Shown piece by piece: positions 34,421-43,046 of a DNA stretch of 47,689 bases. The position numbers and the translations under genes were made by a program. Under the pieces are notes generated by a model, which saw only the letters and a list, made by a program, of their open reading frames with translations, was not told where the DNA came from and searched no databases. Each line of letters starts with the position of its first letter. The first letter of the stretch is position 1. The DNA is from Alphaproteobacteria bacterium (GTDB lineage Bacteria > Pseudomonadota > Alphaproteobacteria > UBA828). The DNA lies in the NCBI GenBank assembly GCA_011523425.1, contig WTGU01000067.1:1-47689 (forward strand), given 5' to 3'.

Positions 34421-35503
34421 GCCCAGCACGGCCATGAGCTCGCGCCACTCGCGCTTGGACAGGCCGCTCGACTCCTGATCGACCGCCTCGCCGGCGAGCA
34501 TGCGCCTGACCACGTCGAGCCCGCCGGAAGACAGCGACGCCGCGTTCATCGCGTAGTCCCGGAAGGCCCGGCAGGTCTCCGGCACCCAGCGCGAGACGAT
34601 CCTGTCGAGGATCGCGTCGGCATAGGCGCGGATCTCGTACTGGGCGTGGGCATCCGCCCGGAGCGAGAGGAAGTGCAGCAGGTTGTGCAGGTCGATCTTC
34701 CAGTAGAACTGGGTGTAGTAGTTGACCGGCAGCGCGGCGCGCGCGAGCTCGCGGGCGAGGCCGGCTCGGTCGGGATCCTTCTTCTCGCCGCTCTCGGCCT
34801 CGTTGAGCAGGTTCTCGTAGACGCCGTAGGCGCGCGTCGAGACCCAGTTGATGCGCGACAGCGCCTCCCGGGCCTCCTCGTCCGCCAGATCGTCGTCCCG
34901 GCCCTGCTTGTTGCTGCCCGACTGCGCGGCCAGCTCCTCGCGTTCCGCCGCCGCCTCCCGCCACCCGAACAGGTCGTCCATGCCGCTGCTGCTGGCCCGC
35001 TGGCGCGCGATCTGCTCCTCCAGGACCGATTGGAGGTGGGCCGGGTCGGGCACATAGAACTCGCGGTCGAGCCTGGAATAGCGCGCGGAGTACTCGTTGA
35101 CGCTGGCGGTACGGTGGCGGAGCCACTGGCGGGCGACGAAGATGGGCGCCTTGATGTGCAGCTTGATCTCGCACATCTCGAAGGGGGTGGTGTGGCGATG
35201 ACGCAGCAGGTAGCGGATCAGCGCCCGGTCCTCGCGCACCTTGCGCGTGCCCGCGCCGTAGGAGACCCGCGCCGCCTGAACGATCGCCCCGTCGTCCCCC
35301 ATGTAGTCGATGACGCGGACGAAGCCGTGGTCGAGCACGTCGAAGCGCTCGTAGAGGATTTCCTCCAGCGCCGGCACCGTGACCCGCCTGGTCTTCTCCC
35401 AGGCGGCGCGCTGCGCCTCGATCTCCGCCCGCTTGTGGTCGTCGATCGGCATGAAGAGGGGCATCCCCGGCGAAGTGAAGCGGCGGATCGCGCCCGCGAT
35501 CAT
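34400..35503 (-). CDS. thyX: FAD-dependent thymidylate synthase ThyX
   Basis: Makes dTMP from dUMP with methylene-THF and reduced flavin, replacing ThyA. From the ATG at 35503 it has 367 residues; starts at 35464 and 35452 are also possible, since homology begins only near [10 protein letters not shown]. The ThyX signature [14 protein letters not shown] is at 129-142. A segment of about 32 residues (159-190, between PAHLQ and [11 protein letters not shown]) appears to be inserted compared with the relatives I know. Downstream family regions ([13 protein letters not shown]) are intact. It is divergent from the tmRNA gene, with about 75 bp between the ATG and the tmRNA start. Confidence 0.93.
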
Positions 35504-35543
35504 ACCGCGCTCCCGCTGTCGCGTGCAGGGGCGCTGGTGCGGC

Positions 35544-35572
35544 TTCTCATGCGGGCCGCGAGCACCTATATT
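35544..35572 (+). promoter_or_regulatory. ssrA: Candidate ssrA promoter
   Basis: -35-like TTCTCA at 35544-35549, a 17-nt spacer and -10-like TATATT at 35567-35572. The predicted start, near 35579, falls exactly on the first base of the first tmRNA hairpin. This fit supports it, although both boxes are imperfect. Confidence 0.5.
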
Positions 35573-35578
35573 GTCGGG

Positions 35579-35890
35579 GTCGGCGGGAGACCGCCGACTA
35601 TGGCGATAAACGCCGTTCGAAATAAGCGTTGCGGACCCGGGGGCAGTACCCGGCGCCTCCACCACCCGGCCGGCAGACCGGATCACGGGGGCGAACCAGG
35701 ATCGACGTGCGTGGTAAAGGTGCGGTCTTCGCCCGGCATGGTACCGCCGTTATCGGGCCAACTCAGAGGTGCGAACGACAACGAAGTCGCACTCGCTGCC
35801 TAGCATCGCTAGGTAAGCGCGGCTCGGGGGGCGCCGGGCAACAGAAGCCCCCCACTCAGGCCAGCCCTGCGCAGAACGCACGTCCGGAAG
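35579..35890 (+). ncRNA. ssrA: Circularly permuted two-piece tmRNA
   Basis: Rescues stalled ribosomes and tags their products. The acceptor piece comes first (about 35579-35664): an 8-bp hairpin with a GAGA loop (35579-35598), a T-arm CCGGG/CCCGG (35637-35653), the 3' acceptor strand CGCCTCC (35654-35660), then A and CCA to 35664. A spacer (35665-35686) follows. The coding piece starts with GGGGGCG (35687-35693), which pairs fully with CGCCTCC, including the G3-U alanine identity pair. The tag frame at 35771-35803 reads ANDNEVALAA then TAG; the stop codon lies in a 5-bp helix (35799-35813). A 7-bp G/C helix (35826-35853) marks a later pseudoknot region. The 3' end near 35890 is estimated. Permutation of this type is known in alphaproteobacteria. 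sspB is next. Confidence 0.93.
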
Positions 35891-35892
35891 CG

Positions 35893-35929
35893 ATGCGGGC
35901 CGTGACCCCGCCGAAGCATCCGGGCTAAG
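35893..35929 (+). promoter_or_regulatory. Candidate sspB promoter with shared dyad motif
   Basis: ATGCGGGCC at 35893-35901, -35-like GTGACC at 35902-35907, a 16-nt spacer (35908-35923) and -10-like GCTAAG at 35924-35929. It is the third copy of the motif found before mlaE and ilvE. It lies just after the tmRNA coding piece, so it probably drives sspB separately from ssrA. Confidence 0.58.
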
Positions 35930-36000
35930 CTGCCCTACATCGCCGGGCCGACACCAGCACGGCCGTGGGCACGGACAGAGGCGCGAACGCGGGCGCGATC

Positions 36001-36582
36001 ATGGGCGCGGACTCGGGCAAGGATCTCATCGGCTACAACGCGTTGGTCGAGAACGGGCTTCGCACGGTCGTCCGCGAGGCGCTCCGCCGCGTTGCCGAAG
36101 AGGGCTGGCCCGGCACCCATCACGCCTACCTCACCTTCAGGACCGGCGCTCCCGGCGTCGAGGTCCCCGACTTCCTGCGTCAGCGCTATCCGGAGGAGTT
36201 GACGATCGTCCTGCAGCATCAGTTCTGGGGCCTGGAGGTGGGCGAGGAGTCGTTCTCGGTAACGCTGAGCTTCAACAAGGTGGGCCAGCGCATCACCGTG
36301 CCCTTCGCCGCGCTCACGAGCTACGCGGACCCCTCGATCAAGTTCGGTCTTCAGTTCGGGCAGGCCCCGCAGCCGGGCAGGAAGGCCGGCGCGAAACGGC
36401 GGCGGCCCGCGGCGGCGGACGCCCCGCCCGATGTGCACGAGGAGGAGTCGGCGCCGGCGGCGCGCAGCGAGCGGGTCGAGCCGGAGGCGCCGGAAGACGA
36501 GTCTGGAGCGACGCGGGACGCGAACGGAGAAGAGGCAGGCGGCGACAAGGTCGTCGCGCTGGACCGGTTCCGCAAGAAGTAG
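36001..36582 (+). CDS. sspB: SspB, ClpXP adaptor for ssrA-tagged proteins
   Basis: Alphaproteobacterial SspB: binds the ssrA tag and tethers tagged proteins to ClpXP. The tag-binding domain spans about 8-118, with LVENGLRTVVREALRRVAEEG, HHAYLTFRT, PEELTIVLQHQFWGLEV and TVPFAALTSYADPSI. A long Ala/Glu-rich linker (about 125-180) is probably disordered. The C-terminus LDRFRKK matches the known XB motif that docks on the ClpX N-domain. I prefer the ATG at 36001 (193 residues); GTG 35965 is in frame, but adds a non-conserved stretch. Its place beside ssrA joins the tag and its adaptor in one locus. Confidence 0.94.
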   Translation: MGADSGKDLIGYNALVENGLRTVVREALRRVAEEGWPGTHHAYLTFRTGAPGVEVPDFLRQRYPEELTIVLQHQFWGLEVGEESFSVTLSFNKVGQRITVPFAALTSYADPSIKFGLQFGQAPQPGRKAGAKRRRPAAADAPPDVHEEESAPAARSERVEPEAPEDESGATRDANGEEAGGDKVVALDRFRKK

Positions 36583-42947: not shown

Positions 42948-43046
42948 GGGAGGTCGGCGGCGGACGGCTTTCTCGCCAACCCGGTCAGGTCCGGAAGGAA
43001 GCAGCCGTAACGAGCTTCAAGCCGGGTCGTCCGTCGGCCTCCTGCC
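42948..43046 (+). ncRNA. ffs: SRP RNA (4.5S type)
   Basis: Bacterial signal recognition particle RNA that scaffolds Ffh and targets membrane proteins. The conserved core GGTCAGGTCCGGAAGGAAGC at 42983-43002, followed by AGCCG, is unmistakable: it contains the domain IV GNAR-type loop and the asymmetric A-rich internal loop. The outer stem is formed by GGAGG (42949-42953) with CCTCC (43038-43042). The length is about 99 nt; the ends are estimated from the stem. It lies 67 bp before dnaX, as is common in alphaproteobacteria. Confidence 0.93.

Follow-up and report, generated by a model that had tools for sequence, protein, structure and literature searches.

The E. coli genes ssrA and sspB are not known to be linked, and the SspB of this organism reads the N-terminal part of the ssrA tag. 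Caulobacter carries a longer ssrA tag than the one described here. SspB is presented as a ClpX adaptor for ssrA-tagged proteins in an excerpt of PMC8138137. A comparison of alphaproteobacteria, as excerpted from PMC2245857, reports that the genes on both sides of tmRNA are conserved and calls functional links uncertain; the section concerned names no sspB. A literature search with limited coverage of the key papers found no published report of ssrA-sspB linkage, which may well be in print.

Here we describe an ssrA gene followed directly by sspB on the same strand of an alphaproteobacterial contig (UBA828 lineage, WTGU01000067.1), of which a stretch of 47,689 nucleotides, the window, was analyzed. 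We conclude that the two genes are very probably the standard alphaproteobacterial pair for trans-translation tagging and delivery. The locus comprises the following features.

35544-35572, + strand: promoter-like site of ssrA (TTCTCA, 17 nt, TATATT), from a sigma-70 scan
35602-35664, + strand: acceptor piece, encoded first and ending ACCA with CCA at 35662-35664, from the RF04321 and RF01849 alignments; the 5' end is predicted
35665-35686, + strand: intervening segment, predicted to be removed, which the Rfam alignment places after CCA and ahead of GGGGGCG
35687-35856, + strand: tmRNA coding piece, opening with GGGGGCG as its 5' acceptor strand and closing with a conserved 3' block, where the RF01849 match ends
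35771-35803, + strand: tag reading frame, ANDNEVALAA and a TAG stop, from ARAGORN
35902-35931, + strand: promoter-like block ahead of sspB (GTGACC, 18 nt, TAAGCT), the second conserved island in a nine-locus alignment
36001-36582, + strand: sspB, presumed ClpXP adaptor of 193 aa (PF04386, 136.3 bits)
36547-36579, + strand: C-terminal tail KVVALDRFRKK, probable ClpX-docking motif, of the LDxFR kind common in SspB frames

The locus encodes a permuted tmRNA with a ten-residue tag

The covariance search, which the original prediction had named as a possible refutation, finds an alpha tmRNA: RF01849 matches over its full length at 35540-35856 (+) with 226.1 bits (Rfam gathering score, 50 bits). The tmRNA_permuted model RF04321 matches 35602-35803 (+) with 144.6 bits, and ARAGORN calls a permuted tmRNA at 35570-35894 with the tag ANDNEVALAA. 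The RF04321 alignment and the letters place the acceptor piece ahead of the coding piece, with G3-U70 and an encoded CCA. As read from the letters, the acceptor strand CGCCUCC is followed by ACCA ending at 35664, and G3 (35689) lies opposite U70 (35658) as the alanine identity pair. Rfam, ARAGORN and the letters thus bear out the predicted tmRNA as a permuted one of the putatively two-piece kind, and ARAGORN and the reading frame confirm its 10-residue encoded tag. The coding piece probably ends at 35856, where conservation falls off in an alignment of nine closely related loci; ARAGORN goes on to 35894.

The gene shares with the two-piece class of RF01849 the acceptor-first order, the alanine identity pair, the encoded CCA, the tag frame and the full-length match, but its ten residues differ from the longer Caulobacter tag. 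The tag of another genome (G072, ANDNFAGEYAVAA) resembles the Caulobacter form. Within the source family, the tag is identical in 13 of the 19 genomes with a tmRNA, differs by one residue in four and by two residues in two. Ten residues is the commonest tag length, found in 55 of the 182 sspB-bearing genomes sampled. A search of the whole source assembly, a draft genome of 3.62 Mb in 159 contigs, finds one alpha tmRNA and one SspB.

Two unusual tmRNA genes were seen elsewhere in the class. G361 (L299 and L317) carries two different permuted copies with the tags ANDDYAELALAA and ANNDYAELPLAA, possibly due to contamination of this draft genome. In G163 (L294), the segment between the tmRNA pieces spans about 575 bases and, judged by eye, consists of near-identical repeats.

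SspB is encoded by the next gene

The original prediction placed an SspB gene directly after the tmRNA. The encoded protein indeed scores 136.3 bits against the SspB family PF04386 (curated Pfam cut-off 27 bits, E 1.2e-39), whereas NCBIfam models gave no match to it at E up to 0.001. The solved structures that match it best, of Caulobacter and Agrobacterium origin, are 2qaz ("SspB Protein"), 2qas ("Hypothetical protein") and 2nys ("AGR_C_3712p"). Residues 6-123 align with 2qaz (E 3.5e-33), but the linker and tail of the source protein fall outside the aligned stretch. An LDxFR tail, presumably the ClpX-docking element of SspB, occurs in 185 of 203 distinct SspB frames. The start codon is most likely ATG 36001; an alternative GTG at 35965 was rejected because relatives place their ATG near 36001.

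The pairing is class-wide

In the window, thyX lies upstream in the opposite direction, with fumC and, on the other strand, an SDR gene downstream. A small bacterial SRP RNA gene is also encoded at 42949-43045 (+; RF00169, 61.2 bits).

The source family carries a tmRNA in 19 of 21 genomes and SspB in 20 of 21, and ssrA immediately precedes sspB, with strand shared, in all 19 genomes with both. A sample of the class has a tmRNA in 221 and SspB in 213 of 231 genomes; SspB is present in 367 of 389 genomes of a larger class sample. Linkage was scored in the 121 alphaproteobacterial genomes that had both places given among the best matches listed, with "adjacent" meaning fewer than 400 bases from the tmRNA model to the SspB domain. 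Among these listed matches, the genes are adjacent in 87 genomes, lie within 8 kb of each other with order and strand kept in a further 22 (109/121 linked in total) and are not together in 12. Two of the 12 (G219, G115) are uninformative, as their genes lie close to contig ends. In a third (G224), the tmRNA is also close to the end of a contig, but the almost 8 kb of sequence upstream of sspB do not contain ssrA.

We also inspected 80 named loci, a non-random set picked by likeness to the source SspB. Here ssrA is upstream of sspB in 72, including one at a distance of 4.3 kb (L118), and five of the other eight have less than 2 kb of upstream sequence. The 51 loci with long flanks retain ssrA in 48 cases (49 after an added search), versus 17 for ThyX, 21 for FumC and 8 for SDR. 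The pair therefore outlasts its neighbors, and the flanking genes turn over faster than ssrA-sspB. Relatives thus keep the two genes linked, a point that the original prediction had marked for checking, and the pairing is a class-wide arrangement that is ordinary for Alphaproteobacteria and no local oddity.

Tags keep an N-x-N motif where SspB is present

Tags were collected from 182 genomes with sspB and 17 without. This sample is non-random. It comprises the source family, the 109 genomes scored as linked, others without linkage, and small genomes that were selected deliberately; many of the 182 tags are thus from genomes selected for linkage or small size. We assigned 26 tags by hand, 23 of them where ARAGORN gave none; the other three are those of G072, where ARAGORN is clearly wrong, G087, where it agrees, and G318. 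The tag start of G318 was shifted by one residue to fit its genus-mates, and the tag was then counted as having NDN at residues 2-4. For G024, G149 and G096, ARAGORN probably misplaces the start, and its calls were kept.

An N-x-N motif is present in the tag of 180 of the 182 genomes with sspB. It is NDN at residues 2-4 in 155, another N-x-N at the same residues in 16 and an N-x-N elsewhere in nine. The two tags without it belong to G024, which lacks the motif also when read from its likely start, and G281. The SspB of the latter genome (L301 / L323) is strongly diverged (E 5.3e-13); its gene lies 2.2 kb downstream of the tmRNA, whose tag is ANNYVAPRVALAA. SspB acts as a ClpX adaptor for ssrA-tagged proteins in E. 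coli (PMC8138137). The E. coli tag is AANDENYALAA, whereas the surveyed class has AN-x-N.

The variable residues (EVA in the source tag) sit between N-x-N and the end taken as the part read by ClpX. The pattern is suggestive, though not proof, of a motif that is kept while the adaptor is present and of a tag middle that is free to drift. A requirement of SspB for N-x-N is the apparent reason that tags retain it. Linkage does not account for the retention, because ANDN tags occur in all 13 examined genomes that did not show ssrA and sspB together.

Long tags repeat the motif

Tag lengths in the 182 genomes fall into two groups, 9-15 residues in 159 and 20-36 residues in 23, with none between and three starts doubtful. 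The 23 long tags come from 13 families and nearly all from genomes of at most 2 Mb, which is partly due to the choice of small genomes. Past residue 4, the long tags contain 24 N-x-N, compared with 9.1 in within-tag shuffles, and none of 2000 shuffles reached this number. At least two separate N-x-N occur in 16 of the 182 tags. Examples of long tags are ANDNVAFVAANDNTVVEVAVAA and ANDNFVACNDNYGDAISVAA; the genomes that carry long tags, most of which repeat N-x-N, include G113 (L279), G064 (L284), G343 (L303) and G382 (L314). The simple reading is that the long tags repeat the adaptor motif, but RNA structure or codon use could also be the source of the repeats.

Genomes without sspB

Among the 17 genomes without sspB, four have an N-x-N tag (G045, G134, G176, G188). 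A search of the 17 genomes with a second SspB profile, derived from 29 diverse proteins, gave no SspB at E up to 0.1 and recovered five of five positive controls. The absence of the gene may be an assembly gap in G134, G176 and G188, since each has a relative of the same genus or family that carries sspB. Leaving these three out, the motif is found in one of 14, namely G045, which lacks sspB and has kept ANDN. The other 13 tags are AKSDYAEYALAA, ANDDYAELALAA, ANESYAIAA, ANDKFALAA, AKNNQLALAA, ADDNFEYAMAA and similar sequences.

Two of the 14 genomes have a one-piece tmRNA in standard order, G087 (L143 / L326) and G067 (L144), the latter cut by a contig end and its order judged by eye. Four more sspB-less genomes also have a one-piece tmRNA: G170 (L324), G184 (L328), G252 (L327) and G267 (L325). 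Pfam finds SspB in none of these six, and N-x-N is absent from all of their tags. A control search of seven genomes that have sspB but no alpha-tmRNA match gave no standard tmRNA over the cut-off. Four further genomes lacking both had none either, save a short match of 47.1 bits in G063, where ARAGORN finds no tmRNA.

Fisher tests at the genome level give p = 2.9e-15 for N-x-N (180/182 versus 4/17) and p = 1.4e-8 for NDN at residues 2-4 (155/182 versus 3/17). Genome counts overstate the pattern, and we set these values aside in view of the clustering of sspB-less genomes on the tree. When 197 permuted tmRNAs are placed on a tree with the tag left out, five sspB changes suffice; by nearest neighbors, three fall to the doubtful genomes, one to family f26 and one to f40 and f83 jointly. 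Sound losses among permuted genomes are about two. In a paired tree test, the tag follows sspB in zero to two of five contrasts and opposes it in none, with a median p of 0.5 from these few independent events. The direction is consistent with N-x-N relaxing after sspB loss, and about two losses together with the one-piece lineages are suggestive of this but do not prove it.

Promoter-like elements and possible origins of the linkage

The ssrA site is the only sigma-70-type match within 35450-36150 (0.1 expected), with none ahead of sspB in this plain scan, and its CTATATT is invariant in the nine-locus alignment. The GTGACC-18-TAAGCT block between the genes is a single match in the window, with none on the other strand. 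It recurs exactly in seven of eight same-genus genomes and five of five near-identical named loci; all 16 loci from other genera lack it. A separate sspB promoter is therefore plausible at the genus level. The predicted promoter candidate for sspB is upheld in the form of this block, though the sigma-70 scan showed the ssrA site only.

It is conceivable that the two genes form one transcription unit in which sspB is expressed via read-through from ssrA. They share a strand, the tmRNA model ends a median of 112 bases before the SspB domain in the 87 adjacent genomes, and one locus (L015) has no promoter-like block. No terminator-like site was found within 35450-36150, but the scan covered one terminator type, and the block conserved between the genes in the source genus argues against read-through. 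A single transcript seems unlikely to us.

A separate question is what the linkage means. It may be leftover ancestral gene order without function, in two genes that were merely never separated. Normal ANDN tags where the genes are apart (G030, G144 and G225 of family f11; G054, G161 and G241 of f35; and others) fit this, as does the promoter-like block of sspB in the source genus. On the other hand, ssrA stays beside sspB at nearly all long-flank loci while ThyX, FumC and SDR come and go, and we hold the leftover account to be close to an even call, somewhat short of favored. A stricter form of co-evolution, in which each residue change in the tag is matched by one in the adaptor and linkage holds matched versions together, could claim the diverged SspB of G281 and its motif-less tag. 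It is improbable given that the presumed adaptor-side motif is in nearly every tag and that genomes with the genes apart look alike. The original suggestion that co-location reflects co-evolution of tag and adaptor is likewise left unsupported, with N-x-N near constant, EVA variable and unlinked genomes all ANDN.

Proposed mechanism and implications

From the genes, tag, linkage, motif and promoter-like blocks, we infer processing, binding and delivery in a standard tagging pair as follows. Cleavage of the ssrA transcript would yield two RNAs, which would pair to form an alanine-charged tmRNA, in line with known biology. At a stalled ribosome, this tmRNA would extend the unfinished protein by A-ANDNEVALAA. 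SspB, encoded next door, would bind the N-terminal part of the tag (AN-D-N), and its C-terminal tail would dock on ClpX, handing the protein to ClpXP, which would grip the LAA end. In the source genome, the two genes have separate promoter-like elements. Their side-by-side position is probably an old class-wide gene order that was retained as neighbors changed, possibly under selection on linkage.

For the Alphaproteobacteria as a whole, we tentatively sketch an ancestral ssrA-sspB module, which we hold to be less likely than not. SspB alone would keep AN-x-N, with decay after sspB loss; one-piece lineages would never have had the adaptor or would have lost it; and several families would have evolved long tags with two or three motif copies. 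If true, these copies could occupy both grooves of an SspB dimer or simultaneously engage more than one adaptor. The survey itself gives a candidate rule for reading tmRNA tags, in which N-x-N is the adaptor's part and should relax in genomes without sspB. The arrangement also offers a hint of the tag segment that SspB may hold, and the sspB-less families, the families with one-piece tmRNA and the multi-motif tags may serve as natural experiments on the dependence between tag and adaptor.
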